12,458 nucleotides of DNA from a bacterium (GCA_030615855.1 JAUWYL010000029.1:1-12458), one strand, 5' to 3'. Numbered from the stretch's first letter, positions 1-12,458 are shown. The notes: generated by a model from the letters alone, not told the origin. Translations and numbers: made by a program.

Positions 1-361
1 CATCTTCTGGATAGAGGACTTTGCAAAGATAATGCCTCTTGCTACAGGAGAAGAGGCCTTTGGGAGCGTTGAGGAACTATTGAAGATTGGTGAGAGGCAG
101 GTGAATGTCAAGCGAGCCTTCAATATCAGGGAGGGATTGACTAGGGCAGATGATACCCTGCCTAAGAGATTTACTGGTGTGCCCATGCCAGAAGGCCCGG
201 GAAAGGGTCAGGTGGCCAATCTAAAGATTATGCTTGATGAATACTATCGGCTACGCGGCTGGGATTTAGAGACTGGCATGATTAAGAGAAAGACCCTGAA
301 GAGATTAAACCTACCAGAGACAGAGAAAGAACTCGATAAACTGAAGAAAATGGTGGATTAA
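1..361 (+). CDS. Aldehyde:ferredoxin oxidoreductase family protein, C-terminal part (AOR1, cut by window start)
   Basis: Only the C-terminal ~120 residues are present. The open frame runs in from the window edge (first full codon at base 2) and stops with TAA at 359-361, so the internal ATG at 32 is not the true start. The visible part has the family's closing region: a helix ending KIGERQVN, then FNIREGLTRADDTLPKRF, PMPEGPGKGQV, and MLDEYYRLRGWD, which follow the end of Pyrococcus furiosus AOR as I remember it. The same blocks end AOR2 and AOR3 here, so this is a paralogue of both. It lies 162 bases upstream of AOR2 and on the same strand. The cluster cysteines and catalytic residues lie outside the window, so activity cannot be judged. 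Family membership is certain; substrate is unknown. Confidence 0.96.
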   Translation, partial: IFWIEDFAKIMPLATGEEAFGSVEELLKIGERQVNVKRAFNIREGLTRADDTLPKRFTGVPMPEGPGKGQVANLKIMLDEYYRLRGWDLETGMIKRKTLKRLNLPETEKELDKLKKMVD

Positions 362-365
362 AAAA

Positions 366-414
366 GGTTTACGGTTAACGGTTTACGGTTAACGGTTTAC
401 GGTGAACGGTAAAC
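366..414. repeat. Iterated GGTTTACGGTTAAC word tract
   Basis: Three successive copies of a GGTTTACGGT-type word, alternating with TTAACGGT or GAACGGT, fill this part of the AOR1-AOR2 gap. The end reads GTTTACGGTGAACGGTAAAC, which can fold on itself (GTTTAC with GTAAAC). A reverse-oriented word, AACGGTAAACCC, lies further downstream at 489-500, so the tract also has a partner for a larger fold. Related but not identical tracts occur at 6604-6649 and 7185-7296. The copies are contiguous with no spacers, so this is not a CRISPR. Function unknown. Confidence 0.8.
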
Positions 415-442
415 AGCCCCGACGGTTGTCGGGACGGGCAAA
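411..442. repeat. Dispersed 32-base hairpin element, copy 1
   Basis: This 32-base stretch matches 6650-6681 at 27 of 32 positions. The core is a hairpin, CCCGAC (418-423), a four-base loop, and GTCGGG (428-433), flanked by AAACAG on the left and ACGGG(C/T)AAA on the right. Several differences fall in the loop and at the stem tip while the stem is kept, as expected if the fold matters. This copy lies upstream of AOR2; the other is upstream of the first ferredoxin. It is not followed by a T run, so it does not look like a simple intrinsic terminator. Confidence 0.75.
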
Positions 443-443
443 T

Positions 444-460
444 TGAATAATAATTATTCA
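444..460. repeat. 17-base perfect palindrome upstream of AOR2
   Basis: TGAATAAT and ATTATTCA are exact reverse complements around a single central A. A second inverted pair, AGCGG (463-467) and CCGCT (483-487), follows at once. The symmetry would suit an operator, but the whole gap is built of palindromic words, so regulatory meaning is speculative. Confidence 0.5.
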
Positions 461-523
461 TCAGCGGGGCAAGTAAAACGCACCGCTCAACGGTAAACCC
501 ATTACCCCAGATTGGAGTGAGAG

Positions 524-2413
524 ATGACTTTCAAAGGTGGCTATGCAGGAACACTTCTTTACGTCGATCTGACGAAAGAGAAGATTAAGAAGGTTCCCTT
601 AGATGAAGAATTAAGTAAGAAGTATATCGGGGGAGCAGGCCTGGCAGCTAAACTATTACTCGATATGATTCCAAAAAGGGTCGACCCATTATCTCCCAGG
701 AATGTCCTGGGATTTTTTGTCGGGCCGTTAACCGGAACTCTCTTTCCTCAGGCCTCGAGATATACTGTGGCGGCTAAGAATCCTTTGACCAATGCCTGGG
801 GCGAGGCTCATGCAGGAGGCTTCTGGGGCCCGGAATTAAAGTTGGCTGGATATGATGGGATAATCTTTACCGGAAAGGCAAAGAGACCGGTCTATCTCTT
901 CATTGATAATGACGAAGTAGAGATTCGTAGTGCAAAGAACCTCTGGGGAATGAAAACCTCTGAAGCAATGGATAGGGTGATTGAAATTCATAAAGACCCC
1001 CAGATAGAGTCTGTAGCCATCGGCCCGGCAGGGGAGAACTTAGTACGCTTCGCCTGTATCTTTACCAGAAATGGACGGGTAGCAGCGCGCAGCGGCATGG
1101 GCCTTGTGATGGGCTCAAAGAACCTGAAACTCATCGCTGTTCGGGGAACGAAGGGTCTGGATGTTGCCAAACCGGATGAATACTTGGATGCTGTAAAGGT
1201 CTGGTATGATAAGGTCCTGAATCATCCCTATACTGAGGGAAGGGTGAAGTATGGGACGACAGAATTAATAGATCTCATGCAATCCATTGGCAGACTTCCT
1301 ACCTATAATATGAGACAGGGGGTCTTCGATGAGTGGGAGAATATCTCCTGTGACACCTATCGGGATAAGTATTTCTTAAGAGCCAGGGCAGACTACGCCT
1401 GTATTCAGAGGTGCGGTCGCTTCGTTTCTGTAGGAACCGGGCCCTATAAGTGCATGGGCAAGGGGCCGGAGTATGAATGTATCTCTGCTTTAGGTTCCAG
1501 ATGCGGAAATTCCAATTTGGCTTCTATTATCTATACCCATCATCTCTGCGATGAATACGGGATGGATTCTATCGGAACAGGAAGCGTCATTGCCTGGGCC
1601 ATGGAGTGTTACGAAAAAGGTTTGTTGACTGAGAAGGATACCGGGGGGTTGGCCTTTAACTGGGGAGACTATGAGTTAATTATCAAGTTAGCAGAAATGA
1701 TTGCCAAAAGAGAGGGGATCGGTGACCTATTGGCCGAAGGAAGCTACCGGGCAGCCAAGAGGCTTGGCCGGGGTTCAGAAAAATATGTTATGCATGTCAA
1801 GGGACAGGATATGGCCTCCCAGGAGCCCAGAGCCCAGAAGTCTATGGGATTATCCGCTGCTACTGCTGCCCGAGGGGCAGACCACCTCTACGCCTTTCCC
1901 GTGCTTGATGAGGGCCAGATCTTTACTAAGGAGATAAAGCAGTGGTATGGAACAAAGTATCTTCCTGAAATAGGAGAGAGATTAAGTCCCAAGAATAAGG
2001 GGTTTATGGTCTCTCATAATGAGAATTACTCTGTCTTAATCGAATCCTTAGGGGTCTGTAAGTATGGCACCATGGTTCCTCCTGCCTTATATTATGAGGA
2101 TATTATAAGAGCCATAGAAGTGACCATGGGCTGGAAGATGACGGAGAAAGAGTTAAAGAAGATTGGAGAGAGGATCGTCAATCTTAATCGACTATTTAAT
2201 ATCAGAGAGGGAATCACTCGCAAGGATGATTCCCTACCCGATAGATTGACCAAGGAACCAGCTCCTCTGGGGGTCCCCAAGGGCCAGGTGGTGGAACTCG
2301 ATCAGATGCTCGATGAATACTATAAATATCGCGGCTGGGACAAAAAGACTGGAAAACCAACCAAGAAAAAACTTAAGGAACTGGGACTTAGCGAAGAAGC
2401 GAAATTCGAATAA
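524..2413 (+). CDS. Aldehyde:ferredoxin oxidoreductase family tungstoenzyme, large subunit (AOR2)
   Basis: At 629 residues this is full length for the AOR family, whose cytoplasmic enzymes hold a tungsten- or molybdenum-bis-pterin and one [4Fe-4S] cluster and normally oxidise aldehydes to acids with ferredoxin-like acceptors. The N-terminal pterin domain is clear (GGYAGTLLYVDL; GPLTGTLFPQASRYTV; AGGFWGPELKLAGYDGIIFTG; SGMGLVMGSKNLKLIAVRG near residue 200). The GPEYE motif is at 314-318, YGMD at 345-348, and the RGADH histidine is H454. The cluster motif is altered: the usual C-x2-C-x3-C reads D290-x2-C293-x3-C297, with the distal cysteine C512 intact. Y337 stands where I recall Glu332 in P. 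furiosus AOR. The start is supported by GGAGTGAG just upstream of ATG 524. Family assignment is firm; substrate and cluster type are open. Confidence 0.96.
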   Translation: MTFKGGYAGTLLYVDLTKEKIKKVPLDEELSKKYIGGAGLAAKLLLDMIPKRVDPLSPRNVLGFFVGPLTGTLFPQASRYTVAAKNPLTNAWGEAHAGGFWGPELKLAGYDGIIFTGKAKRPVYLFIDNDEVEIRSAKNLWGMKTSEAMDRVIEIHKDPQIESVAIGPAGENLVRFACIFTRNGRVAARSGMGLVMGSKNLKLIAVRGTKGLDVAKPDEYLDAVKVWYDKVLNHPYTEGRVKYGTTELIDLMQSIGRLPTYNMRQGVFDEWENISCDTYRDKYFLRARADYACIQRCGRFVSVGTGPYKCMGKGPEYECISALGSRCGNSNLASIIYTHHLCDEYGMDSIGTGSVIAWAMECYEKGLLTEKDTGGLAFNWGDYELIIKLAEMIAKREGIGDLLAEGSYRAAKRLGRGSEKYVMHVKGQDMASQEPRAQKSMGLSAATAARGADHLYAFPVLDEGQIFTKEIKQWYGTKYLPEIGERLSPKNKGFMVSHNENYSVLIESLGVCKYGTMVPPALYYEDIIRAIEVTMGWKMTEKELKKIGERIVNLNRLFNIREGITRKDDSLPDRLTKEPAPLGVPKGQVVELDQMLDEYYKYRGWDKKTGKPTKKKLKELGLSEEAKFE

Positions 2414-2416
2414 GCG

Positions 2417-2527
2417 CAATTCCCAATTCCCAATTTCTAATTTCCAATGAGTGAAAGGTAGTTGGGTTAAGGTAAGGTAGTGAGTTTAGTAGTTGGGTAA
2501 GGGTTAGGTGTTTAAAAAGACCAACTA
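2417..2527. repeat. Word-iterated intergenic tract between AOR2 and the permease gene
   Basis: The AOR2-permease gap holds no gene. It begins with repeats of CAATTCC/CAATTTC (2417-2448), then a G/T-rich part in which TAGTTGGGT occurs twice (2459-2467 and 2490-2498). CCAACTA at 2521-2527 is the reverse complement of the start of that word, so a stem with about 24 loop bases can form. The build is the same as in the other gaps here (iterated words plus an inverted copy), but the words differ. Function unknown. Confidence 0.65.
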
Positions 2528-2554
2528 CAGAAATTTAATGGAGGATTACTGATA

Positions 2555-2914
2555 ATGGATATGTTATTCTATGTCCTATTAGGTCTGGGAGCAGGAGTCT
2601 TAAGTGGCTTAATCGGGATAGGAGGGGGAGTAATCATCATTCCTGCTTTGGTCTATCTCTTCGGGCTTACCCAACATCAAGCCCAGGGAACAACCTTGGC
2701 CTTGTTAGTTCCCCCCATCGGTCTACTTGCTGCCTGGACCTATTATAAGCACGGGCACGTGGATCTGAAGATTGCCGCCCTTATATGTCTGGGTTTCTTT
2801 GTGGGTGGTTTAATGGGCGCCCGGGCAGCCGTCGGGATATCCGGCGAAGTGCTCAGGAGGGTTTTTGGATGCGCCCTATTATTTTTGGCTCTAAGAATGA
2901 TTTTAGGAAAGTAA
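2555..2914 (+). CDS. Half-size TauE/SafE family membrane permease
   Basis: This 119-residue hydrophobic protein matches one repeat unit of the TauE/SafE family, whose usual members are ~250 residues with two such halves and move sulfite, sulfonates or related organic anions across the inner membrane. The diagnostic opening is LGAGVLSGLIGIGGGVIIIPALVYLFG, with the glycine-rich GIGGG at the end of the first helix. About four membrane segments fit roughly at residues 3-33, 44-63, 70-91 and 98-116. A family member of this size would have to dimerise. GGAGG at 2540-2544 supports ATG 2555. It begins a tight run with two small genes and a dehydrogenase. A 42-base decayed copy of its 3' end lies at 4311-4352. 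The family is clear; the substrate is unknown. Confidence 0.9.
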   Translation: MDMLFYVLLGLGAGVLSGLIGIGGGVIIIPALVYLFGLTQHQAQGTTLALLVPPIGLLAAWTYYKHGHVDLKIAALICLGFFVGGLMGARAAVGISGEVLRRVFGCALLFLALRMILGK

Positions 2915-2944
2915 CTCATTACTAAGCAAAAGGAGGAAGAAAGA

Positions 2945-3151
2945 ATGGCTAAGAAGAAAGAGAAGAAAGGGAGGAAAAAGATTAAGAAGGAAAAGAAGGT
3001 AAAGCAAGTCTTTACTATCACTATGGAGAGCAGTGACCCCTATGTGGGCACCATCCAAGAGAATGTTAAGGGTAAGAAAGCGCGCTTTACCAGTGCCGGA
3101 GCCCAGATAAATTTTGTGGCCAAGAACATCATTGCTCCCGAAAAGGAATAA
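2945..3151 (+). CDS. Small lysine-rich protein of unknown function (68 aa)
   Basis: I do not recognise this protein. The first ~20 residues are almost all lysine with some glutamate, arginine and glycine (MAKKKEKKGRKKIKKEKK), probably disordered and strongly basic. The rest (VFTITMESSDPYVG, then KGKKARFTSAGAQINFVAKNII) looks like a compact beta-rich stretch. There is no cysteine, no membrane segment and no C-terminal Gly-Gly, so it is not a MoaD/ThiS-type sulfur carrier. AAAGGAGG lies about nine bases before the ATG. It starts 30 bases after the permease gene and ends one base before the next small gene, which argues for real expression. A nucleic-acid or membrane-surface contact by the basic tail is only a guess. 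Confidence 0.7.
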   Translation: MAKKKEKKGRKKIKKEKKVKQVFTITMESSDPYVGTIQENVKGKKARFTSAGAQINFVAKNIIAPEKE

Positions 3152-3152
3152 T

Positions 3153-3293
3153 ATGAACGAGAGACTTTTTTTGGCTTTAAAGGGGACCATCCGGGATTTT
3201 GTTAAGACCACGCGGGACGATGGTTGGGAGGAAAGAGAGATAAAGAAGGTCATCCGCCATATGACCCGGGATACTCTTAAGGAGTATAAATAG
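3153..3293 (+). CDS. Very small protein of unknown function (46 aa)
   Basis: This 46-codon frame begins with ATG 3153, one base after the stop of the preceding gene, and ends with TAG at 3291-3293. The product reads MNERLFLALKGTIRDFVKTT, then a charged part with DDGWEEREIKKVIRHMTRDTLKEYK. Two amphipathic helices joined by the DDGW turn are likely; there is no signal peptide, cysteine or membrane segment. AAGGA lies about six bases upstream, inside the end of the previous gene, which fits translational coupling. The dehydrogenase gene follows after 12 bases. Tight spacing on both sides is the main evidence that the gene is real. I do not recognise the family. Confidence 0.6.
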   Translation: MNERLFLALKGTIRDFVKTTRDDGWEEREIKKVIRHMTRDTLKEYK

Positions 3294-3305
3294 AAAAGGT
3301 AAGTT

Positions 3306-4304
3306 ATGAAGATAACCTTCTTTGAGTGCAAAGATTATGAAAAGAAGAGATACTGTGCCGAACTAAAGGAGCATACGATAAACTGCACCAGTTCTATTTT
3401 AACCGCTCAAACTTTAAAGGATTACCGGGATTCAGAAGTCATCTCTGTCTTCATTCGTTCCACATTAGATAAAAAGAACCTTGCTCAATTCGCTAACTTA
3501 CGTCTTATTGTTACCCGCTCTACTGGCTTTGACCATATCGATTTAGAGGAATGCCAGAAAAGAAAGGTTGCGGTTACTAACGTTCCTTTCTATGGGGAAA
3601 ATACGGTTGCCGAGCATGCCTTTGCTCTCATTCTATCTCTTTCCCGCAATATCCATAAATCCTATGTACGAACCCTAAAGGATGATTTTACCATTGAGGA
3701 TTTACAGGGTTTTGACTTAAAAGGAAAGATTTTAGGAGTAATAGGGACGGGACATATCGGTTCTCATGTGATTAAGATGGCCAAGGGATTTGGAATGGAG
3801 GTTTTGGCCTATGACAAATATCCTGATTCCCTTCGGGCTGATGTTCTACAGTTTAAATATGTTCCCTTAGAAGAATTACTAAAGGAATCGGATATTGTTA
3901 CCATTCATATGACTCTTACTCCCGAAACCCGGCATTTCATAAATGAAGAGAGTCTACGCCAGATGAAGAAGGGGGCCATTCTGGTCAATACTGCCCGAGG
4001 AGATATTGTAGATACCGATGCCTTATACAAGGCCTTGAAAGATAAACACTTAGGAGGAGCAGGATTGGATGTGATTGAAGGAGAAGAACTTATTAAAGAA
4101 GAGCATGAGTTACTCTATAAAACGGGAAATCCTGAGAAATTAAGAACTCTCTTCCAGGATAAGGCTATCTTCAAGATGGATAACGTGGTTTTTACTCCCC
4201 ATAATGCCTTTAACAGTAGGGAAGCGGTTAATAGGATTATGGATACTACTATTGAAAATATTCTTTCTTTCTGTAAGGGAAAAATTATTAACCAGATTAA
4301 ATGA
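3306..4304 (+). CDS. D-isomer-specific 2-hydroxyacid dehydrogenase (D-lactate dehydrogenase-like)
   Basis: The 332-residue length and layout are those of NAD-dependent D-2-hydroxyacid dehydrogenases, cytoplasmic enzymes that interconvert 2-oxoacids and D-2-hydroxyacids. The NAD-binding fold is marked by G147-T-G149-H-I-G152, with D170 at the end of the second strand favouring NAD over NADP. The family signature after it is IVTIHMTLTPETRHFI, then VNTARGDIVDTDAL with the substrate arginine R231, the acidic partner in LDVIEGEE (258-261), and the catalytic histidine H299 in TPHNAF. The N-terminal STGFDHIDLEECQKRKVAVTN and the TVAEHAFALILSLSRN helix resemble the D-lactate/VanH branch. ATG 3306 has AAAAGG upstream. 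It ends the permease run. Natural substrate (pyruvate, an aromatic 2-oxoacid or another) is not determined. Confidence 0.95.
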   Translation: MKITFFECKDYEKKRYCAELKEHTINCTSSILTAQTLKDYRDSEVISVFIRSTLDKKNLAQFANLRLIVTRSTGFDHIDLEECQKRKVAVTNVPFYGENTVAEHAFALILSLSRNIHKSYVRTLKDDFTIEDLQGFDLKGKILGVIGTGHIGSHVIKMAKGFGMEVLAYDKYPDSLRADVLQFKYVPLEELLKESDIVTIHMTLTPETRHFINEESLRQMKKGAILVNTARGDIVDTDALYKALKDKHLGGAGLDVIEGEELIKEEHELLYKTGNPEKLRTLFQDKAIFKMDNVVFTPHNAFNSREAVNRIMDTTIENILSFCKGKIINQIK

Positions 4305-4310
4305 ACCAGT

Positions 4311-4352
4311 GCCTTGTTATTTTCGGCTCCAAGAATGATTTTGGGAAATAAC
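4311..4352 (+). pseudogene. Decayed 3' fragment of a TauE/SafE permease gene
   Basis: Seven bases after the dehydrogenase stop, this 42-base stretch aligns with the last 43 bases around the end of the permease gene (2873-2915). About six substitutions and one deleted base are seen. Read in the matching frame it gives ALLFSAPRMILG against ALLFLALRMILG in the intact gene, and the deleted base removes the in-frame stop. The similarity does not extend visibly on either side. It is best read as the remnant of a second permease copy lost by deletion, or as a short duplicated segment. It lies at the left edge of the A+T-rich segment. Confidence 0.65.
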
Positions 4353-4374
4353 GGCGCGCTTCGCTCTCCGCCGT
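4351..4374 (+). terminator. Possible intrinsic terminator after the dehydrogenase gene
   Basis: ACGGCG (4351-4356) can pair with CGCCGT (4369-4374) around a 12-base loop and is followed by CTTT. The stem is G+C-rich but short and the T run is weak, so termination here is uncertain. The reverse strand of the loop contains GAGCGAAGCGC, loosely like the motif upstream of nuoE and nuoF. It may therefore be a dispersed repeat, not a terminator. Confidence 0.3.
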
Positions 4375-4433
4375 CTTTCACTTATTGAAATTCCGATACC
4401 TTAAAATAACGTTTGATAGATGAGAAAAGACAT

Positions 4434-4457
4434 TCCCGCATTCCCGGGAATGCGGGA
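4434..4457. repeat. Perfect 24-base palindrome
   Basis: The sequence is its own reverse complement over all 24 bases, with TCCCGCATT on the left, a central CCCGGG, and AATGCGGGA on the right. It lies in the 290-base gene-free gap 4305-4594 ahead of the protease gene. Apart from the permease remnant, the hairpin at 4351-4374 and A-rich sequence, I see nothing else in that gap. Palindromes of the ATTCCCGC...GCGGGAAT type are common dispersed elements in bacterial genomes; only one copy is in this window. Confidence 0.7.
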
Positions 4458-4594
4458 CTGAAGAAAATAATAGAAATAGTGAGAAGTAAAAAGAAGAAGT
4501 AAGTATTAGATGAAGCGAAAAAGATAGATTGAAATTTGGCCTTTTTGAACCTAAAAAAATTAAGTGAATTGGCTTCAAAGAAAAAAGGGGGGTT

Positions 4595-5722
4595 GTGATG
4601 TTTTGGAAAATAATGAAACCAGCTGCAGCTATAACCATTTTAGCTTTAGCTATTCTCTTTTCTGTGACCGCTTATAGCAGTGAGAAAATGATGAAAGAAA
4701 GTAATGTAGATGGAAATATGAATAAAATGTTAAACGAAATTAAAAAAACTGTAGTTTTTCTTGGTGAAATTAATGGGGCCGTTACAAAATTAGTATTTTT
4801 AAAAATAAAAGACTTAGATGAGTCGAAGTCTGAAGAAGTTTTTAATGAATTAATAGAAAAGGGGTATTTAGATGTAGATGGCAAGATACTGCATAAATTT
4901 TGGCCACATAAAAACGAATTTACATTAAGACTCAGTAAAAAATTTGCTAAATATGAAAAGGAAATAATTGATATTTTAACACAAGAAGTAAGGCTCCGAT
5001 TTTACGCAACTGGGTTTTTAGTTAGTATTCAAAATGTTTATCATCTGCTCACCGCAAAACATGTAGTTGCAAGTATGAAAACTGGAAAGTTGCAGGATGA
5101 AGGAATGCTCGTATTCTTTAACTCGAAAGATGGAAGGATTGGTCTGCGTTCTATAGAAAGTGTAAAGAAAAATTACGGAGTGAATTGGATTTTTCATAAG
5201 AATGTAGAAGTAGATGTTGCTATAATTCCATTTGGATTAGACTCCCAAAAAGATGATGTAAAAGTAATTCGTAATAAGTGGTTTCTTCTTTCCGATAGAA
5301 TATTTGAACTTTACGATGTTTTCTTTTTATCTTATCAGCCAGGCATTGAACCTCAAAGAAAAATTTCCCCAGTTATCAGAGCTGGAATAATAAGCATAAT
5401 CAATGATGACAAATCATTCTATATAGATGCTTCTGCTTTTCCAGGGAATAGTGGCAGTCCTGTATTTCTCAAACCTTCTCCTATAAGATTTGATAAAAAT
5501 AGAATCTCTCTCGGAAAGGATCCATTAGGCGGTAAATTCGTAGGAATTATCGGCGAATATATTCCATATCAAGAAATAGCTATAAGTACTCAAACTGGTC
5601 GTCCGCGTGTAATATTTGAAGAAAATACAGGGCTTTCGAAAGTGTGGTCTGTAGAGTTCATTAAGGAAATTCTTGACTCAGATGTATTTAAAGAACAGAT
5701 TGATAAAATACCAAGGAAATAA
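4595..5722 (+). CDS. Exported trypsin-like serine protease with an N-terminal insertion
   Basis: This 375-residue protein has a signal peptide or membrane anchor (basic start, hydrophobic ~10-26). The PA-clan catalytic triad is visible: H156 in LLTAKHVVAS, D207 in VEVDVAIIPF, and S286 in AFPGNSGSPVF. It is expected to act outside the cytoplasmic membrane. Residues ~56-130 separate the first strand (KTVVFLG) from the usual ATGFLVS. They hold a charged helical part and ELIEKGYLDVDGKIL...KFWPHKNEFTLRL, which looks like a small helix-turn-strand module not typical of DegP-type proteases. No PDZ domain follows. The frame can start at GTG 4595 or ATG 4598; the G run at 4587-4592 fits either, and I favour 4598. 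Its DNA is visibly A+T-richer than the redox genes. Substrate unknown. Confidence 0.85.
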   Translation: MMFWKIMKPAAAITILALAILFSVTAYSSEKMMKESNVDGNMNKMLNEIKKTVVFLGEINGAVTKLVFLKIKDLDESKSEEVFNELIEKGYLDVDGKILHKFWPHKNEFTLRLSKKFAKYEKEIIDILTQEVRLRFYATGFLVSIQNVYHLLTAKHVVASMKTGKLQDEGMLVFFNSKDGRIGLRSIESVKKNYGVNWIFHKNVEVDVAIIPFGLDSQKDDVKVIRNKWFLLSDRIFELYDVFFLSYQPGIEPQRKISPVIRAGIISIINDDKSFYIDASAFPGNSGSPVFLKPSPIRFDKNRISLGKDPLGGKFVGIIGEYIPYQEIAISTQTGRPRVIFEENTGLSKVWSVEFIKEILDSDVFKEQIDKIPRK

Positions 5723-5858
5723 AAGTCGCCCCTTTACCTATCAACAACTCCTATGAAGATCGTACAACACGGGCTTTGTGGCTTACTTCGTTTATTTGAA
5801 TGCTTCGTACTTTGCAAACACGCAAAACATTGATTAAATCGTGTAAGGAAAAATTTCT
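5723..5858. other. Gap between protease and membrane-protein genes; nothing recognised
   Basis: These 136 bases hold no convincing gene, tRNA or strong hairpin. Unlike most other gaps in the window, the stretch shows no obvious iterated word. A promoter for the next gene could be here, but I see no clear -35/-10 pair. Confidence 0.5.
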
Positions 5859-6263
5859 ATGGAATATCCAGTCAAATATGTAGAATCTTTTCGGGGAAGT
5901 ATTGGTTTATTCGGCAAAGGTCTAGTTTGTCTGGAAGAGAATGTAGTATATTTTCAAGGAAGAAAACATTGGCTCGGTATAGTAAGGATAGGGATATTCT
6001 TAGTTATAACAGTATTACTTGGATCTTTTATGGGTATTGGTTTTTTAATAGCTGTGCTAATATTTCACTATGCATGTGCCTCATCAGTTAATCTTAAAAT
6101 TCCATATTCAAATCTTTCCGATGTAGATCGGTTGAATAGTAAGATACAAGTAAAAGTTCGGTTGAATAATAAAGTAAAGAATCTTATTTTTATATGCAAA
6201 CAAAATGCTAGTGAGATCGAAGGGCAATTAAAGGAAAGAATTACTGATGGAACAAACTTTTAA
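5859..6263 (+). CDS. Membrane protein with PH/GRAM-like flanks around a two-helix hairpin
   Basis: The 134-residue product starts with a soluble part whose GSIGLFGKGLVCLEENVVYFQG resembles the first strands of bacterial PH/GRAM-like domains. A hydrophobic stretch at ~38-74 is long enough for two membrane helices. It resumes with IPYSNLSDVDRLNSKIQVKVRL and KNLIFICKQNASEIEGQLKE, again like the last strands and helix of such a domain. The split-domain reading is inference from pattern, not a database match. AAGGA lies about 11 bases before ATG 5859. The 3' end overlaps the next gene by 17 bases. Codon use is A/T-ending, like the protease gene. Function unknown. Confidence 0.75.
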   Translation: MEYPVKYVESFRGSIGLFGKGLVCLEENVVYFQGRKHWLGIVRIGIFLVITVLLGSFMGIGFLIAVLIFHYACASSVNLKIPYSNLSDVDRLNSKIQVKVRLNNKVKNLIFICKQNASEIEGQLKERITDGTNF

Positions 6264-6558
6264 TCCATTAAATTGGTTAGCAATTATGCTTATTGCTCAT
6301 ACTGTAGGAATTTTTGCTGCGTTTTATGTATACGATGATGGTAGAAAAAGATATGCTAGTAAATTTTGGGTTATTGGTTGGGCAATAGGTGTTTATCTTG
6401 CATTTATTATTGTTTTTTGGTTTTATCTACTTTCAAGACCACCAGTTACTTTTTTTGATGCTCCAGAATTATCAGGAGGAAAAAAACTTTTAATTTATTT
6501 TGTTTCTTTTCCGTTGGGGATGGGGTTGATCGCATTTTTATCTTTAATTTTTGCATGA
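6247..6558 (+). CDS. Small integral membrane protein of unknown function (103 aa)
   Basis: I do not recognise this protein. Three hydrophobic segments are visible, at about 8-29, 40-62 and 80-102, with a basic GRKRY stretch between the first two and a short hydrophilic loop (SRPPVTFFDAPELSGGKK) before the third. The ATG overlaps the last 17 bases of the preceding membrane-protein gene in another frame, so translation is probably coupled and the two products may form one complex. A+T content is as high as in that gene. No motif points to a function. Confidence 0.75.
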   Translation: MEQTFNPLNWLAIMLIAHTVGIFAAFYVYDDGRKRYASKFWVIGWAIGVYLAFIIVFWFYLLSRPPVTFFDAPELSGGKKLLIYFVSFPLGMGLIAFLSLIFA

Positions 6559-6603: not shown

Positions 6604-6649
6604 GGTTTACGGTTACGGTTTACGGTGTACGGTAAAGACCGTAAACGGT
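6604..6649. repeat. GGTTTACGGT word tract with inverted arms
   Basis: Words of the GGTTTACGGT type run to about 6634 and then switch orientation to ACCGTAAACGGT. ACGGTTTACGGT (6615-6626) and ACCGTAAACGGT (6638-6649) pair at 11 of 12 positions around an 11-base loop. The tract runs directly into the second copy of the 32-base element. It occupies the gap between the small membrane protein and the first ferredoxin. Confidence 0.75.
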
Positions 6650-6681
6650 AAACAGTCCCGATAGATGTCGGGACGGGTAAA
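6650..6681. repeat. Dispersed 32-base hairpin element, copy 2
   Basis: This copy matches 411-442 at 27 of 32 positions. GTCCCGA (6655-6661) pairs with TCGGGAC (6668-6674) around a six-base loop. It lies about 30 bases upstream of the first ferredoxin start. As with copy 1, it follows a GGTTTACGGT tract and has no T run after it. Confidence 0.75.
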
Positions 6682-6713
6682 CCGTAAACGATTACTGAGA
6701 CTCAGGAGGTATC

Positions 6714-7184
6714 ATGTCTAAAGTTTTAATGATTGATGCCGAAAAGTGTAGCGGATGTCGCTTGTGTGAACTGGCCTGTGCCTTTAATAAGGAGAAGAGG
6801 ATTATTCCCATTCTGGGAAGGGTAAACGTCTTCCAGAACTATGAACAGGGCTTAAGCGTCCCGGTGGTCTGCACCCAGTGCGAGGAGGCGCCCTGCATCA
6901 GGGTCTGTCCCACAGAGGCCCTTTATCGCGACCCGGAGACGAATGCTGTCAAGGTGAAAGAGGAGAAGTGTATTGGATGTAAGATGTGCACCCAGGCCTG
7001 TCCCTATGGAGCGGTGGTCTTTATCCCTGAGAAGAAGGTGGTCATTAAGTGCGACCTCTGTGACGGAGACCCGGTCTGCGTCAAGTTCTGCCCCACCGGC
7101 GCTATCAAATACGAAGAGCCAGTGAAAGCCACCCTTTCCAAGAGGAGGGAGCAGGCGGAGAAGGTGTGGGAGACCCTTACCTAG
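6714..7184 (+). CDS. Four-cluster [4Fe-4S] ferredoxin-like electron-transfer subunit (Fd1)
   Basis: This 156-residue protein carries 16 cysteines in four groups, at 12/15/18/22, 53/56/61/65, 86/89/92/96 and 113/116/122/126. That is enough for four [4Fe-4S] clusters in the arrangement of DmsB/HycB-type subunits and of the small subunits of bacterial WOR and BamC-type complexes. There is no signal peptide, so it works in the cytoplasm, most likely passing electrons from an AOR large subunit. ATG 6714 has AGGAGG at 6704-6709. A close paralogue (Fd2) follows after a 126-base palindromic gap, and AOR3 lies further down. Which AOR it serves cannot be told; one partner per ferredoxin is a reasonable guess. 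Confidence 0.93.
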   Translation: MSKVLMIDAEKCSGCRLCELACAFNKEKRIIPILGRVNVFQNYEQGLSVPVVCTQCEEAPCIRVCPTEALYRDPETNAVKVKEEKCIGCKMCTQACPYGAVVFIPEKKVVIKCDLCDGDPVCVKFCPTGAIKYEEPVKATLSKRREQAEKVWETLT

Positions 7185-7296
7185 TTTACGGTAAACGGTT
7201 AGGGTAACGAAGCCCGTATCGTTTAAGGGTTACGGTTACGTAACCGAAAAACGTGACCGAAACGGGCATCGTAACCGATAAACGATTAACGAATTA
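7185..7296. repeat. Word-iterated gap with a 56-base imperfect palindrome
   Basis: The Fd1-Fd2 gap is made of GTTTACGGTAAAC, GGTTACGG and related words. Bases 7212-7239 and 7240-7267 form two 28-base arms that pair at about 22 positions with no loop, bounded by GCCCGT and ACGGGC. The centre, 7233-7246, is a perfect 14-base palindrome (CGGTTACGTAACCG). On DNA this could extrude as a cruciform; on RNA it would be a long hairpin between two ferredoxin cistrons. No gene is visible. Confidence 0.75.
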
Positions 7297-7310
7297 TTCA
7301 AGGAGGTTTT

Positions 7311-7790
7311 ATGAGTAAGATACTTGTGGTGGATATTGAGAAGTGTTCCGGATGTCGAATATGTGAGTTGGCCTGTTCTTGGTATCATGAAGAGGAGTTC
7401 AATCCCGCCAAAGCCCGGCTGTCTATCGTGAGTTGGAAGAAGGCGGCCATCCACTATCCCATGATCTGCGAGCAGTGCGAGAAGGCCCCCTGCGCCGAGG
7501 TCTGTCCTACAGATGCTATTTACAAGGATGAGGAGAGTGGATCTTGGAAGGTGGATGAAGCCAAGTGCATTGGGTGTAAATTCTGTATCCAGGTCTGTCC
7601 TTTGGGTGCCATCTCTTTCTTTGAGGAGAAAAGGGGAGCAATAAAGTGTGATCTCTGTGATGGAGACCCCCAGTGCGTCAAGTTCTGTCCCATGGAGGCC
7701 ATTGAGTTCGTGGAAGAGGATAAGGTAGGCTTGAAGAAGAAACGCATCTCAGCCGAGAAACTCTTTGCCACCATGCAGGAGGTAAAATAG
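7311..7790 (+). CDS. Four-cluster [4Fe-4S] ferredoxin-like electron-transfer subunit (Fd2)
   Basis: This 159-residue paralogue of Fd1 has 16 cysteines at exactly the same positions (12/15/18/22, 53/56/61/65, 86/89/92/96, 113/116/122/126), predicting four [4Fe-4S] clusters. Sequence outside the cysteine motifs has diverged, most in residues 23-50 and in the C-terminal tail, the likely partner contacts. AAGGAGG precedes ATG 7311. Its stop codon abuts the ATG of the HEAT-repeat gene, which is followed at 11 bases by AOR3, so Fd2 and AOR3 are very likely made from one transcript and are the best candidate pair. The fold is firm; the pairing is inferred. Confidence 0.93.
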   Translation: MSKILVVDIEKCSGCRICELACSWYHEEEFNPAKARLSIVSWKKAAIHYPMICEQCEKAPCAEVCPTDAIYKDEESGSWKVDEAKCIGCKFCIQVCPLGAISFFEEKRGAIKCDLCDGDPQCVKFCPMEAIEFVEEDKVGLKKKRISAEKLFATMQEVK

Positions 7791-9275
7791 ATGTTTCAAA
7801 GGAAAGCATTGGGCTTTAGTCTAAGTTTATTATTGCTGATTTCGGCAGTAAGCAAGGCTGAAGAGAGAAGACCGAATTCTATAGATGATTTGGTTAAGGC
7901 ATTGAAAAGTAAGGATAGCAAAATCCGAATAGCTGCAATCGAAAAATTAGGAAAGTCCAATGATAAAAGAGCTATAGAGCCCTTGATTGAGGTTTTGAAG
8001 AAGGACGAAAATGATAGAGTGAGAGCAGAGTCTGTTGAAGCATTGGGTTTTTTGGGAGATAAAAGGGCAGTGGAACCATTAATTTATGCATTAAAGTATG
8101 ACGATTCCAGGAGCGTTCATTGGGAAGTTGCCAGAGCTTTTGAGACAATAAGAGCTAAAGAAGCCTATCAACCATTAATAGAAGAATTTAACAATGCCAT
8201 TACAAGGCAGTGGAGAGATAGCGCTCATCATGTTGCATCAGCAATTGGTAATACTAGAGACCCAAGAGCGTATGACTTTTTAACAAAAGAGATATTGGAT
8301 AAAAAGACTTACCATCCTTTTATTAGGAGTGGGGCAGCAGTAGGCTTGGGAAAATTAGGTGATAAAAGGGCGGTAGAAATACTCATTGGAATGTTAGAAG
8401 AGCATGACCCAGCGGCATATGGTGCTGCTGATGGATTGGGACTATTGAAGGATAAAAGAGCAGTAAAGCCTTTAATTGATGCCTTAGATAAAGAAGCCGA
8501 GCACAGAAGCCATATAGCAGAAGCTTTGGGCGAAATAGGGGATAAAAGGGCAGTGGAACCACTCATTAATCTATTGAGGGATAGTCGCTCCTATACCCGT
8601 GACAAAGCAGTTGAAGCCCTGGGTAAGATAGGCGATAAAAGAGCGATTGAGCCATTAAAATATGTTGCCAAGATCGATAGAAATTCTCATACCCGCTCTA
8701 ATGCCCGGGAGGCTCTTGGTATATTGATACCTGAGGAAATGAAAAGAAGAGGCTATACCTTTGATTTTCTTAAATCGACCTTGACAGCTGATAATCTTCC
8801 CTATATTGTTTTTGCTTTGAAAAGTAAGAGTAAATATGTTCGTAAATTAGCAGCGTTCGATTTAGGAGAGTTGAGAGATAAGAGAGCAATAGATTATCTT
8901 AAGGAAGCTTTGAAGAATGAGAAAGAAGAAGAGGTTAAAAAAGAAATTACAAGAGCTTTAAGTAAAATTGAAACTGGCATAAAAGGCTTATTAGCTGAGT
9001 TAACATCAGGCAAGACTGAAGAGGAGAGGATTAACGCTGCTATATCCTTAGGTTATTCTGATGATAAACGAGCAGTATCCTATTTGATTAAAGGATTGGA
9101 AGACAAGAATGCTCGAGTTCGGAGATATGTGATTAATTCTCTTGGAAGATTAGGAAGCAAAGAGGCCATTAAGCCTTTAACTGATTTACTTCATAGAGAG
9201 GATTCGGAATTAAATAAACAGATAATAGAATACGCATTGAAAGCATTACGAGAAGGGAGCCCTTTTTTATTTTAG
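7791..9275 (+). CDS. Exported HEAT-repeat protein
   Basis: This 494-residue protein begins with a clear Sec signal peptide (basic MFQRK, a leucine-rich core to ~20, a likely cut after SKA at 23). The rest is about eleven HEAT/PBS-lyase-type helical repeats of ~31 residues with the signature DKRA(V/I)xPL; the DKRA tetrapeptide occurs eight times, with variants such as SKEAIKPL. Such solenoids bind other proteins; no catalytic motif is visible. A looser stretch near residues 310-340 (PEEMKRRGYTFDFL) may split two blocks. ATG 7791 directly abuts the Fd2 stop, and AGGAGG at 7777-7782 lies in the Fd2 gene. Its DNA is A+T-richer than that of Fd2 and AOR3. An identical 21-base segment at 8058-8078 and 8541-8561 suggests internal duplication. 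Confidence 0.92.
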   Translation: MFQRKALGFSLSLLLLISAVSKAEERRPNSIDDLVKALKSKDSKIRIAAIEKLGKSNDKRAIEPLIEVLKKDENDRVRAESVEALGFLGDKRAVEPLIYALKYDDSRSVHWEVARAFETIRAKEAYQPLIEEFNNAITRQWRDSAHHVASAIGNTRDPRAYDFLTKEILDKKTYHPFIRSGAAVGLGKLGDKRAVEILIGMLEEHDPAAYGAADGLGLLKDKRAVKPLIDALDKEAEHRSHIAEALGEIGDKRAVEPLINLLRDSRSYTRDKAVEALGKIGDKRAIEPLKYVAKIDRNSHTRSNAREALGILIPEEMKRRGYTFDFLKSTLTADNLPYIVFALKSKSKYVRKLAAFDLGELRDKRAIDYLKEALKNEKEEEVKKEITRALSKIETGIKGLLAELTSGKTEEERINAAISLGYSDDKRAVSYLIKGLEDKNARVRRYVINSLGRLGSKEAIKPLTDLLHREDSELNKQIIEYALKALREGSPFLF

Positions 9276-9279
9276 GAGG
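9273..9279 (+). promoter_or_regulatory. Ribosome binding site overlapping the HEAT stop codon
   Basis: TAG, the stop of the HEAT gene, is the first part of TAGGAGG, the ribosome binding site of AOR3, which starts at 9287. Termination and reinitiation are therefore physically linked and the two products are probably made in a set ratio. Confidence 0.8.
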
Positions 9280-9286
9280 TTTTGTT

Positions 9287-11263
9287 ATGAATGATGGTTA
9301 TGCTGGTAGATATCTGAGGGTTGATTTGCCGAGAGAGAAGTTCACTGTCCTGCCTACGCCCGAAGAATGGAAGAGGAAGTATCTGGGTGGAGTAGGAATG
9401 GGTGCCCGCATTATGTGGGACGAGGTGCCTCCAGAGGTCAAGCCCCTATCCCCCCAGAATAGGATCATTTTTGCTACTGGTCCCGTGAATGGAACCCTAT
9501 TTCCTCCTTCGGGAAGATATGAGGTCATCTCCAGGTCTCCCTTGACCGGCTGGTGGGCCCACGCTTCTGCTGGTGGATTCTTCGGCCCGGAGATGAAGTA
9601 TGCCGGATATGATCTCATTATTATCCAGGGGAAAGCGAAGAAACCTGTCTATTTACATATCGATAATGACTTAATTGAATTGAAGGATGCTAAGCATCTG
9701 TGGGGGAAGAACGTCATAGAGACTACTGACCAGATCATAAAGGAACTTAAAGATCCCGATGTCAAGGTGGCCTGTATTGGGCAGGCGGGTGAGAACTTGG
9801 TAAAGTATGCCTGCATTATGAGCGATTACTTCCGAGCCGCAGGGAGAACCGGATTGGGCGCTGTCTTAGGCTCTAAAAACTTAAAGGCCATTGCCATAAG
9901 GGGAACAAAGGGAATAAAGATCGCCAATAAGGAAAAGTTCAATAAATTATTGGAGGATGCCTTTAAGCGCCACTCACCAGAAGGAAGATACTGGGAGTAT
10001 ATTGAGAGTTTTCGCAAGTATGGAACATTCTCTTTGACTGATTGGGAGAATGCTATCGGAAGATTACCCACCAAGAACCACTGGACGGGCTACTTTGAGA
10101 ATGCTGAGGAGACCATCGGGATGGAGCCCATGAAAAAGAGGCATTATAAACGACATGCCTCCTGCTTCGGCTGCGGTATCCAGTGTAAGTATTCCTCTAT
10201 CGTAAAGGAAGGGAAATATGCCGGAACAGAGTCCGAGGGCCCAGAGTATGAGACCGTAGAAGGCTTCACCTCTAACTTCTTATCTACTGATACCAATGCC
10301 TTGATTCGGGCCAATTACCTCTGCAATATCTATGGTATGGATACCATCTCTGTTAGCCACTCTATCTCCTGGGCCTATGAGTGCTATGAACATGGCCTCT
10401 TAACAAAGGATGATACCGATGGTAGGGAGCTAATCTGGGGTGAGGATGGGATGGATCATGTAATTGAATTATTGGAAGAGATTCCTTTTAGGAAAACCAA
10501 GTTCGCCAGTCTCCTGGCCGAAGGATCACAGGAGGCAGCGCGTAGAACAGGCAAAGGCTCTGAGGCCTATGCCATCCACGTCAATGGCTTAGAGGCCTCT
10601 GGTCAGGATGGAAGACCCCATAAGTCATTAGGTTTAACCTATGCCATCAATGTTCGGGGGGCGGACCATCTTACCTCCCTCTCCAGTCTGGATGAGTTGG
10701 GTTATAAGGAAGAGATCAGAAGAAGGTATAAGAAGGAGACAGTCGATATCTTAGCCGAGAGATGGGATGAGAAATTAAAGGGATATCTGGTAGCGGATAT
10801 GGAGGAGTTATATGCCCTCTGTGACTCTGCCCTACTCTGTAAGTATGGTGTTATGTGGCCCCCCATCTACTATCATCAGGACTTTGGGAAGATTATCTCA
10901 ACCATCACTGGCTTTACTGAGTATGAAAACCCGAAAGAACTGAATAAATTAGCCAAGAGAATCTGTCATCTCAGAAGATGCTTCAATGTCAGGCTTGGCT
11001 GGTCGAAAAAGAACGATGCTCTGCATCCCCGGTTTACTGAAGAGCCCATGCCTACCGGTCCGGCAAAGGGGCAGGTGGTTCATCTGGAGCCCATGTTAAG
11101 GGAGTATTATCAGGCAAGAAAATATGATTGGAAGACCGGTTATCCCACCAAGAAGGAGTTGGAAGAGGTGGGATTGGAAGATGTGGCAAAGGAACTAAAG
11201 AAAAGGAAGAAGTTAATTCCAGTATATCGAGGCAAGAAAGCCTTCCAGATCAGAAAGAAGTAA
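9287..11263 (+). CDS. Aldehyde:ferredoxin oxidoreductase family tungstoenzyme, large subunit (AOR3)
   Basis: At 658 residues this is a complete AOR-family subunit, with pterin-domain blocks (YAGRYLRVDL; ATGPVNGTLFPPSGRYEVI; GGFFGPEMKYAGYDLIIIQG; GLGAVLGSKNLKAIAIRG). The cluster ligands are canonical: C293-x2-C296-x3-C300 and the distal C518. GPEYE is at 318-322 and the RGADH histidine is H461. R341 and N347 occupy the places I recall as Glu332 and Asp338 in P. furiosus AOR, so the pocket differs from the archaeal enzyme and from AOR2. A ~25-residue basic tail follows the usual end. AGGAGG overlapping the HEAT stop drives ATG 9287. Electrons probably pass to Fd2 or Fd1 and on to NuoE/NuoF; the substrate is unknown. 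Confidence 0.96.
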   Translation: MNDGYAGRYLRVDLPREKFTVLPTPEEWKRKYLGGVGMGARIMWDEVPPEVKPLSPQNRIIFATGPVNGTLFPPSGRYEVISRSPLTGWWAHASAGGFFGPEMKYAGYDLIIIQGKAKKPVYLHIDNDLIELKDAKHLWGKNVIETTDQIIKELKDPDVKVACIGQAGENLVKYACIMSDYFRAAGRTGLGAVLGSKNLKAIAIRGTKGIKIANKEKFNKLLEDAFKRHSPEGRYWEYIESFRKYGTFSLTDWENAIGRLPTKNHWTGYFENAEETIGMEPMKKRHYKRHASCFGCGIQCKYSSIVKEGKYAGTESEGPEYETVEGFTSNFLSTDTNALIRANYLCNIYGMDTISVSHSISWAYECYEHGLLTKDDTDGRELIWGEDGMDHVIELLEEIPFRKTKFASLLAEGSQEAARRTGKGSEAYAIHVNGLEASGQDGRPHKSLGLTYAINVRGADHLTSLSSLDELGYKEEIRRRYKKETVDILAERWDEKLKGYLVADMEELYALCDSALLCKYGVMWPPIYYHQDFGKIISTITGFTEYENPKELNKLAKRICHLRRCFNVRLGWSKKNDALHPRFTEEPMPTGPAKGQVVHLEPMLREYYQARKYDWKTGYPTKKELEEVGLEDVAKELKKRKKLIPVYRGKKAFQIRKK

Positions 11264-11521
11264 ACACGAATAAACGCGAACTGAATAGTAGAAGACGTAA
11301 GAAACATGACACGAATCAACACGAATTACGAGTAAATAAGAGAATAAGTTAATAAGTTGATACGAATTGCGAGTCACGGGTTACGAGTTAAGTGATTAAA
11401 TCATAAAACCATACAACTATACAACCATCAAACCATAAAACTATTAAATTATTCAACTATCTAGCCGAACTCTGCATTCAATTATCTGTGCTCATCTGTA
11501 ATAAATCTGTGTAAATCTGTG
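11264..11521. repeat. Multi-block word-iterated gap upstream of nuoE
   Basis: This gene-free gap is a patchwork of at least three word families. The first (11264-11395) repeats ACACGAA, ACGCGAA, ACGAATTACGAG and TTACGAGTTAAG forms. The second (11397-11462) is A+T-rich with about seven variants of AACCATA/AACTAT. The third (11481-11521) has four ATCTGT words, at 11484, 11494, 11505 and 11515. Each block is internally repetitive but shares little with the others. I see no open frame in it that looks like a gene. Confidence 0.7.
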
Positions 11522-11538
11522 TGCGAACGAAGTGAGCA
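11522..11538 (+). promoter_or_regulatory. GAACGAAGTGAG motif just upstream of nuoE
   Basis: TGCGAACGAAGTGAGCA has TGC/GCA ends that can pair, and lies immediately before ATG 11540. A related motif, GCCGAACGGAGTGAGGC, precedes the nuoF start. Its AAGTGAG is the only ribosome-binding-like sequence near the nuoE ATG. An in-frame GTG at 11519 falls at the left edge of the motif, so starting there would translate the element. Confidence 0.5.
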
Positions 11539-11539
11539 A

Positions 11540-11992
11540 ATGAGAAAGATTAATCAAATTATAGATAGGTATAAGAAGGAAAAAGGAGCCTTGGTACCTC
11601 TTCTTCAGGATGTAATGGGGGAGTATGGTTATCTTCCGGGAGAGACCCTAAAGAAGATTGCTCAGGAGTTAGATACCCCTCTCTCCCGGGTTTATGGCCT
11701 GGCCACCTTCTATAAATCCTTTAGCCTCACTCCCCGGGGAAAGCATCTGGTAAGTGTCTGTCTGGGAACCGCCTGTCATGTGAGAGGGGCTCCCCGGATT
11801 GTGGAGAAATTAGAAAGGGATTTGGGAATAAAAGCAGGAGAAACGACCAGGGACTTGAAGTTTACCTTAGAGACAGTCAATTGCCTGGGGGCCTGTGCTT
11901 TAGGACCCTTGATAACCATCGATGGAAAATACTATGGCCGGATGAACTCTGCCAAAATGGATAAAGTATTGAAAGAGTATCTCAAAAGATAG
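11540..11992 (+). CDS. nuoE: NuoE/HndA-like thioredoxin-fold [2Fe-2S] subunit
   Basis: From ATG 11540 the product has 150 residues, the usual size of the 24-kDa (NuoE, HndA, BamG-type) subunit. Four cysteines, C74-x4-C79 in VCLGTACHVRGAP and C115-x3-C119 in VNCLGACALGP, bind one [2Fe-2S] cluster in a thioredoxin-like fold. The N-terminal helical bundle (LVPLLQDVMGEYGYLP, then RVYGLATFYKSF) is typical. It acts in the cytoplasm with the NuoF-type flavin subunit that follows. The in-frame GTG at 11519 would add MCERSEQ, which is translated repeat motif, so I chose the ATG. The position after AOR3 suggests a link from the tungstoenzyme ferredoxins to NAD(H). The gene symbol denotes family only; the parent complex (hydrogenase, AOR or Bam-type) is not settled. 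Confidence 0.92.
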   Translation: MRKINQIIDRYKKEKGALVPLLQDVMGEYGYLPGETLKKIAQELDTPLSRVYGLATFYKSFSLTPRGKHLVSVCLGTACHVRGAPRIVEKLERDLGIKAGETTRDLKFTLETVNCLGACALGPLITIDGKYYGRMNSAKMDKVLKEYLKR

Positions 11993-12003
11993 GGAGTTTA
12001 AAA

Positions 12004-12087
12004 GGATTCAAACGGATGATAACGGATGCAAACGGATAAACTATCGCAAAAAGGTCCGTCTGCATCTGTTTAAATCTGTCTGAATCT
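12004..12087. repeat. Long imperfect hairpin between nuoE and nuoF
   Basis: Two 33-base arms, 12004-12036 and 12055-12087, pair around an 18-base loop. Counting G-U pairs, 28 of 33 positions pair; the exceptions are a three-base internal mismatch and two single mismatches. The left arm repeats AACGGATG-type words and the right arm repeats ATCTGT words, so the arms are built from complementary iterated words. It begins 12 bases after the nuoE stop and has no T run after it. It could stabilise or process the transcript, or be a mobile-repeat relic. Confidence 0.8.
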
Positions 12088-12094
12088 GCGTCTT

Positions 12095-12111
12095 GCCGAA
12101 CGGAGTGAGGC
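12095..12111 (+). promoter_or_regulatory. GAACGGAGTGAG motif just upstream of nuoF
   Basis: GCCGAACGGAGTGAGGC resembles the motif upstream of nuoE, again with pairing ends (GCC/GGC). GGAGTGAGG within it is the best ribosome binding site for ATG 12121, at about ten bases. Both redox subunits thus seem to take their translation start signal from the same element. Confidence 0.5.
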
Positions 12112-12120
12112 TTATTTAGA

Positions 12121-12458
12121 ATGAAATTAACGAGACCATCTGATTTACAGAAAGCGAGAAAGATGATTCGTTCTCGCTACGATCCAAAGAAGACCTGTGT
12201 TACTGTCTGCTGTGGGACAGGATGTATTGCCTCTGGTGCCCAGGGTGTGGCTGAGGCCTTTAGAAAAGATATCGATAAAAGAGGCCTGAGACCCAGGGTG
12301 AATCTCAGGATAACCGGATGCCATGGATTCTGCGAAAGGGGCCCATTGGTAGTCATCTATCCCAAGAAAATCTTTTATCAAAGAGTAAGAGTAGGGGATG
12401 TAAAGGAGATTATCTCTCAAACCATCCTTAAAGAAAAGATAATCGAACGCCTCCTCTA
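12121..12458 (+). CDS. nuoF: NuoF/HndC-like NADH-binding flavoprotein subunit, N-terminal part (cut by window end)
   Basis: The frame is open from ATG 12121 to the window end (112 codons). The visible part is the extra N-terminal thioredoxin-like [2Fe-2S] domain found in HndC/HydB/BamH-type NuoF proteins and absent from classical NuoF. C30-x4-C35 in VCCGTGCIASGAQ and C67-x3-C71 in GCHGFCERGP are the cluster ligands, and FRKDIDKRGLRPRVNLRITG is typical. The NAD, FMN and [4Fe-4S] parts should lie beyond the edge. This longer form occurs in NAD-linked and electron-bifurcating hydrogenases and related complexes, which fits a bifurcating or confurcating role here but does not prove it. The full gene and its downstream neighbours would decide which complex it belongs to. 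Confidence 0.9.
   Translation, partial: MKLTRPSDLQKARKMIRSRYDPKKTCVTVCCGTGCIASGAQGVAEAFRKDIDKRGLRPRVNLRITGCHGFCERGPLVVIYPKKIFYQRVRVGDVKEIISQTILKEKIIERLL

Follow-up and report, generated by a model that had tools for sequence, protein, structure and literature searches.

AOR-family oxidoreductases as candidate substitutes for xanthine dehydrogenase in a predicted anaerobic purine-degradation cluster

The stretch of DNA analyzed here, referred to as the window, is an entire contig (C10; GCA_030615855.1 JAUWYL010000029.1:1-12458) of 12,458 bp from a bacterial genome of 1.375 Mb (45 contigs, 93.6% complete), and it carries genes for tungsten-type oxidoreductases of the AOR family together with ferredoxin-like and NuoE/NuoF-like partners, all on the plus strand. 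Five AOR genes are present in the parent genome. The first gene of the window is the 3′ end of that for a large subunit, AOR1 (positions 1..361, coding 2-361), represented by its last 119 residues only (Pfam AFOR_C, 111 bits), and this is followed by a second large subunit, AOR2 (524..2413; 629 amino acids [aa]; AFOR_N, 258.6 bits; AFOR_C, 446 bits). Farther downstream are two small subunits that resemble WorS, Fd1 (6714-7184) and Fd2 (7311-7790), each with 16 cysteines in the manner of a protein with four [4Fe-4S] clusters. These cysteines occupy identical positions in Fd1, Fd2, and a third ferredoxin, Fd0, which is encoded upstream of AOR1 on contig C8, and Fd1 is conserved in sister genomes. 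A third large subunit, AOR3 (9287..11263; 658 aa; AFOR_N, 278 bits; AFOR_C, 340 bits), stands in the position of WorL. It is followed by a NuoE-like 2Fe-2S subunit in the position of WorC (11519..11992; 2Fe2S_thioredx, 176.7 bits), whose true start, judged by the starts in sister genomes, is probably the ATG near 11540, and by the N-terminal 2Fe-2S domain of NuoF in the position of WorB (12121..12456), the remainder of which lies on contig C4. A first-pass annotation of the window had listed these genes and their common orientation, and both are confirmed.

Because the ends of the window are also the ends of the contig, the neighbors of the locus are invisible from the window alone. Read as its reverse complement, contig C8 shares its last 141 bp exactly with the opening of the window, and across this overlap the two join into a complete AOR1 reading frame of 654 aa. 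At the 3′ end, a DNA overlap with another contig was sought and none was found; the join to contig C4 is based on the continuity of NuoF, which resumes there at residue 131, and on a contig from a sister genome (G004:C86, JAUXAI010000004.1) that has the same gene order without a break, the deaminase being the first of these genes and the second carbamoyltransferase the last. Contigs C8, C10, C4, and C39 joined in this way form a cluster of ~37 kb with two operon-like runs. In the first, a gene for 8-oxoguanine deaminase lies upstream of PreT-PreA-Fd0-AOR1-AOR2, with AOR1 and AOR2 also adjacent in three sister genomes. The second reads Fd1-Fd2-AOR3-NuoE-NuoF-NuoG′-ssnA and onward, where NuoG′ denotes a NuoG-like protein. 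The earlier view of the window as one locus needs qualification, since ~4 kb of genes that vary among sister genomes separate the two runs. The named relatives (89-96% identity) are the metagenome assemblies CSMAG_2758, CSMAG_2684, HyVt-354, and UBP18_UBA7526, and the organism is accordingly assigned to candidate phylum UBP18. We read CSMAG and HyVt as cold-seep and hydrothermal-vent samples, and thus the organism is presumably an uncultured seafloor bacterium. AOR genes are present in all six UBP18 genomes examined.

Judged by its gene content, the locus is very probably a reductive anaerobic cluster for the degradation of urate and other purines. In the reductive urate pathway as published, urate is converted to yanthine by XdhD and the ring is then reduced by YgfK or the PydA-like UacX (PMC12507026). 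The later steps, carried out by SsnA, HyuA, YgeW/UacY, YgeY, and YgeX, lead to pyruvate (PMC12507026). After NuoF, contig C4 continues with the NuoG-like protein (256 aa), SsnA, a pyridoxal phosphate (PLP) enzyme, and the start of YgeY, and contig C39 holds the rest of YgeY, two carbamoyltransferases, and a carbamate kinase. PreA and the 8-oxoguanine deaminase score above curated NCBIfam cut-offs, as do SsnA with two models (558.8 bits versus 444 for the copy of a sister genome, and 536 versus 455.5 for the genome's own copy) and YgeY (469.6 bits versus 321). The two carbamoyltransferases score under the YgeW cut-off (181 versus 453); homologs with 42-57% identity to them recur at SsnA loci of other families, beside SsnA and YgeY. 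The carbamate kinase-like protein is 34% identical to YqeA. No match to YgeX was found in the genome, and a different PLP enzyme stands at its place. This protein, of 489 aa and of the cysteine-synthase type (L019:281-1750, contig C4), also recurs in SsnA loci of other families (31-58% identity, with 53-58% in three of them), and it is possible that it replaces diaminopropionate ammonia-lyase.

The SsnA neighborhoods of 40 genomes outside UBP18 were read in windows of up to 20 kb, and homologs of PreA or YgfK are common in them. The PreA of the locus clusters with SsnA-adjacent PreA proteins of other families (support 95/97; 69% to that of L188), and not with E. coli PreA or the other PreA of this genome, which belongs to a pyrimidine operon. 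Its substrate loops are changed at three places (NFSCP to SFSCP, TPN to TPM, and AINT to ASNT). By this comparison among PreA proteins, that of the locus would take the part of yanthine reductase. Both operons are thus made of purine-degradation genes, which does not bear out the first-pass suggestion of a pathway devoted to aldehyde or acid chemistry.

What sets this cluster apart is the lack of any recognizable xanthine dehydrogenase (XDH). The XDH large-subunit family PF02738 occurs in 39 of the 40 SsnA-containing genomes outside UBP18, versus 68 of the remaining 244 outside genomes (Fisher p about 5e-18), and SsnA is therefore a strong predictor of XDH. PF02738 was found in none of the six UBP18 genomes, and E. 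coli XdhA, XdhB, XdhC, XdhD, and YgfM gave no tblastn match in the parent genome. Where other clusters have XDH, AORs here fill the runs beside PreA and SsnA. We therefore put at roughly even odds the proposition that the missing XDH family is replaced in this purine cluster by tungstopterin enzymes of the AOR family, with their substrates deduced from this setting.

Two genomes from outside the phylum touch on the same subject. In G082 (L192, C20), the only other SsnA genome without an XDH match, a YgfK-SsnA pair is present and two AORs are located on different contigs, an arrangement that lends weak support at most to a replacement of XDH by AORs. In G145, from another family, an AOR with its own ferredoxin is located ~4 kb from SsnA, YgeY, XDH, and YgeW (L197:2873-5399).

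AOR1, AOR2, AOR3, and an AOR encoded on contig C2 constitute one clade (100/98), and an AOR encoded on contig C6 falls outside it. Most AORs share Thr243, Glu313, Tyr427, and His448 (numbering of PfAOR); the role proposed for Tyr427 is the positioning of the aldehyde, and changes at this residue accompany the loss of aldehyde activity in WOR4 or a new substrate in WOR5 (PMC12096430). All 12 aligned AORs of the locus type carry Gln427, Asp447, and Leu or Phe at position 452, in place of Tyr427, Cys447, and Tyr452, and all 12 retain Thr243, Tyr312, Glu313, and His448. Position 427 is Tyr in the AORs of the PDB and in five plasmid-borne AORs, and His in the C6 AOR and one archaeal AOR. Gln427 appears in none of the other AORs aligned, although neither this comparison nor the tree extends to the nearest outside AORs, such as that of G092 (44%). 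AOR3 itself has Gln427, Asp447, and Leu452, with Gln427 present in every aligned ortholog, and it keeps three of the four residues in the second-shell set of aldehyde-oxidizing AORs, having lost Tyr427. In AOR2, which likewise has Gln427 and Asp447, an Asp replaces the first Fe-S cysteine (Cys288 of PfAOR), as it does in the orthologs from G003 and G005. These differences among the paralogs agree with the earlier remark that the large subunits diverge at key positions. An AlphaFold2 run on AOR3 (six sequences) gave a pLDDT of 38 and was not used.

The two AOR genes outside the cluster also have nucleobase genes for neighbors. On contig C2 (L006:4806-15363), the fourth AOR with Gln427 is surrounded by FdrA, a protein with a DUF1116/YlbE-like reading, a cytosine-deaminase-like amidohydrolase, a cyclase-like protein, and uridine phosphorylase, which amounts to another setting of the nucleobase type. 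The C6 AOR is part of a pyrimidine operon (L008, 25000-44000) that encodes a fused PreT-PreA, an aminotransferase, dihydropyrimidinase, an amidase, the AOR, and a CoA-transferase, and that adjoins genes for biotin carboxylase and subunits of a Na+-pumping decarboxylase. This gene content suggests that the C6 AOR oxidizes malonate- or methylmalonate-semialdehyde, with CoA transfer and sodium-pumping decarboxylation to follow.

AOR3 and its neighbors resemble an electron-bifurcating complex. The best PDB matches of AOR3 (9mqx_D, 422 bits), Fd2 (9mqx_E, 139.7 bits), and the NuoG-like subunit (9mqx chain A) all come from one entry, and for the full-length NuoF of a sister genome 9mqx_B is the third-best match (793 bits). 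From its chain names, we take 9mqx to be a bifurcating tungsten oxidoreductase (WOR) like that of Acetomicrobium mobile. The A. mobile enzyme is described in PMC13328260. Equivalents of WorL, WorS, WorA, WorB, and WorC are thus encoded together, with NuoE assigned by Pfam, and the type 1 order S-L-C-B-A is present as Fd2-AOR3-NuoE-NuoF-NuoG′ in G003, G004, and G005. Fd2 immediately precedes AOR3 in G003 and is likely its partner. The first-pass proposal that several AOR paralogs share four-cluster small subunits and a NuoE/NuoF pair is therefore strengthened by the match to a known tungsten complex. It had further held that hydrogenase catalytic genes after NuoF and AORs from unrelated clades would speak against a single system. 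What follows NuoF is the NuoG-like subunit and ssnA, and the three AORs form one clade; a bifurcating hydrogenase (HydABC) was rejected, there being no hydrogenase catalytic subunit at that place. The NuoG-like protein of 256 aa lacks an H-cluster motif, and an FeFe motif was not found in the genome. NuoE/NuoF genes beside XDH and SsnA in G027 were considered as a parallel and dropped, because the next gene reads by inspection as hydrogenase-type. A search for tungstate-transport genes, also proposed earlier, was rewarded by a TupABC-like transporter that adjoins MoeA (named by sequence inspection), and MoaA and MoaC are present as well. The genome also encodes Rnf, a membrane NiFe hydrogenase-like complex, adenine deaminase, and nucleoside-breakdown genes.

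We reasoned that the AORs act on purines because they are located in operons where XDH-type enzymes act, XDH is missing, the active site is altered, and the chemistry is analogous. Specifically, the AOR clade with Gln427 and Asp447 would hydroxylate and dehydroxylate purines as a tungsten counterpart of XDH, with one member inside an electron-bifurcating complex, and we assign this reading a probability of about 0.42. It draws on gene content, conserved gene order, the absence of XDH, the changed active site, and the match of subunits to a bifurcating-type complex, all of which are read from sequence. In such a pathway, deamination would convert adenine to hypoxanthine and 8-oxoguanine to urate, and AOR1 and AOR2 (with Fd0) and AOR3 (with Fd1/Fd2 and NuoE-NuoF-NuoG′) would add or remove purine-ring oxygens. 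Candidate steps lead from hypoxanthine through xanthine to urate and from there to 2,8-dioxopurine (yanthine). The conversion of R-CH=N to R-C(=O)-NH would correspond, for an N-heterocycle, to the interconversion of aldehyde and acid by known AORs. With NAD(P)H as the reductant, PreT-PreA would then reduce yanthine at its pyrimidine ring, and SsnA and a hydantoinase would open the rings. ATP would be conserved by the YgeW-like carbamoyltransferase and carbamate kinase, and YgeY would release diaminopropionate for cleavage by the PLP enzyme to pyruvate and ammonia. The AOR3 complex might couple its own reaction to ferredoxin and NAD jointly; by our reckoning, two oxidations starting from hypoxanthine would balance two reductions, which fits shared ferredoxins and NAD. 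The substrates of the AORs, the direction in which each works, tungsten as their metal, and bifurcation itself are all predictions of this scheme.

Several observations weigh against purine-acting AORs. We know of no AOR-family enzyme that acts on purines or on any N-heterocycle. The linkage of AORs to purine genes is seen in this one lineage of a single phylum, and in 18 other genomes, chosen for close AORs or for the lack of XDH, none of the AORs listed has an amidohydrolase gene within 10 kb. The SsnA-neighboring AOR of G145 is highly divergent, and an XDH is encoded with it. The missing XDH is also less striking than the count of zero in six implies, as UBP18 represents a single evolutionary event rather than six independent losses, and the genomes are 53-94% complete. 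HyuA is absent from the cluster, its sole match in the genome being the dihydropyrimidinase of the pyrimidine locus on C6, and homologs of the E. coli purine permeases XanQ, GhxQ, and UacT were not found in the genome. Moreover, deoxyribose-phosphate aldolase is present, and acetaldehyde is therefore a plausible AOR substrate.

This last point belongs to the main rival explanation, which we regard as unlikely on balance. Here the AORs would oxidize nucleoside-derived aldehydes, such as acetaldehyde from deoxyribose 5-phosphate and semialdehydes from base degradation, and AOR3 would bifurcate electrons to ferredoxin and NAD to feed PreT-PreA, making the AORs electron suppliers rather than purine enzymes. 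The genome indeed encodes DeoC, phosphopentomutase, and nucleoside phosphorylases, the AOR3 operon matches the bifurcating aldehyde-oxidizing type of WOR, Glu313, His448, and Thr243 are retained, and a semialdehyde is the intermediate expected for the pyrimidine operon that contains the C6 AOR. However, the XdhD step and the absence of XDH would be left unexplained, and three aldehyde enzymes would be required although no aldehyde figures among the published intermediates of the pathway. Furthermore, Tyr427 is replaced by Gln in every AOR of the locus, whereas the C6 AOR has His, a residue also found there in a characterized AOR.

The first-pass annotation had pointed to BamB-I, and on these lines one AOR could be a BamB-like reductase that dearomatizes the purine ring with ferredoxin and NAD(H) through NuoE/NuoF, replacing YgfK. 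The superfamily is that of class II benzoyl-CoA reductase, and the NuoE/NuoF partners are similar. According to a 2026 classification, this reductase is the sole WOR known to catalyze something other than an aldehyde reaction (PMC13328260). We nevertheless consider this improbable, since the AORs keep Glu313 and His448, both of which BamB is reported to lack (PMC12096430), and since the operon already provides a ring reducer in PreT-PreA, of the SsnA-adjacent type. Among the PDB matches, BamB scores lowest (233 bits), and HdrA-like (BamDEF) genes were not seen at the locus by reading of open reading frames here and in the sister contig. Slightly less probable still is an incidental co-location, in which an aldehyde-detoxifying tungsten system merely adjoins purine genes of a separate pathway. 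The restriction of the linkage to this lineage and the unrelated genes between the two runs speak for it, but AOR1-AOR2 directly follow PreT-PreA-Fd0 and ssnA follows AOR3-NuoE-NuoF-NuoG′ in those sister genomes whose contigs span the site, and the remaining AORs of the genome adjoin nucleobase genes too.

A tungsten counterpart of XDH would bear on a family whose functions are sparsely assigned, in that a physiological role is defined for an enzyme in only 5 of 92 clades of tungsten oxidoreductases (2026 classification; PMC13328260). The proposal offers a testable role for one AOR group, the oxidation or reduction of the purine ring in place of XDH. If it is correct, the AOR family would, like the molybdenum hydroxylases, include enzymes for aldehydes as well as enzymes for N-heterocycles, and XDH genes alone would be insufficient for inferring anaerobic purine degradation. 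Literature searches, including a term search of PMC13328260, turned up no link between AORs and purine degradation, and purine-acting tungsten enzymes are, to our knowledge, undescribed.

The other genes of the window, also on the plus strand, are probably outside the system. Between AOR2 and Fd1 are genes for a TauE/SafE-like one-domain protein (2555-2914; Pfam), a D-2-hydroxyacid dehydrogenase (3306-4304; Pfam), a trypsin-like protease (4595-5722; Pfam Trypsin_2), and two membrane proteins (within 4595..6558), and this interval holds different genes in sister genomes G003 and G005. When G000 is compared with G004, the TauE-like protein is 100% and the dehydrogenase 99.7% identical, whereas the flanking AORs are only about 96% identical, which suggests recent exchange. 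Between Fd2 and AOR3 is a gene for a HEAT-repeat protein (7791..9275; HEAT_2, 252 bits). There is no space for it between Fd2 and AOR3 in G003 and G005, and it is an insertion found in two species.

Among known systems, the urate clusters of E. coli and C. difficile share with this locus the combination of SsnA, a PreA of the SsnA-adjacent type, YgeY, a YgeW-like carbamoyltransferase, carbamate kinase, and a PLP enzyme. The locus differs in that three AORs, three 16-Cys ferredoxins, and NuoE/F/G′ are present and no XDH homolog was found genome-wide, YgeX is exchanged for another PLP enzyme, the hydantoinase is encoded elsewhere, and an 8-oxoguanine deaminase is added. The XDH family (XdhA/XdhD) carries out the addition and removal of purine-ring oxygens that we propose for the AORs, yet it is an unrelated protein family with no homolog found in this genome. 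Class II benzoyl-CoA reductase (BamB-I) is similar in having an AOR-family subunit with NuoE/NuoF-type partners, but Glu313, His448, and Thr243 are kept here, and HdrABC-like subunits and benzoate genes were not seen. The class IV bifurcating WOR (WorSLCBA; PMC13328260; 9mqx) is matched by AOR3, Fd2, NuoF, and the NuoG-like subunit in chains D, E, B, and A and in gene order; in contrast to it, AOR3 has Gln, Asp, and Leu for Tyr427, Cys447, and Tyr452, the operon continues into ssnA, and two species carry the HEAT-repeat insertion. Finally, WOR5, the aliphatic sulfonate ferredoxin oxidoreductase (ASOR), likewise belongs to the AOR family, has a polyferredoxin as a subunit, and carries another residue in place of the second-shell Tyr. 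It reportedly lacks the Thr and has His at the Tyr position, whereas the AORs described here keep the Thr and have Gln. Its Fe-S cluster is reported to have three Cys ligands and one Asp ligand, and the motif in AOR2 suggests the same arrangement.

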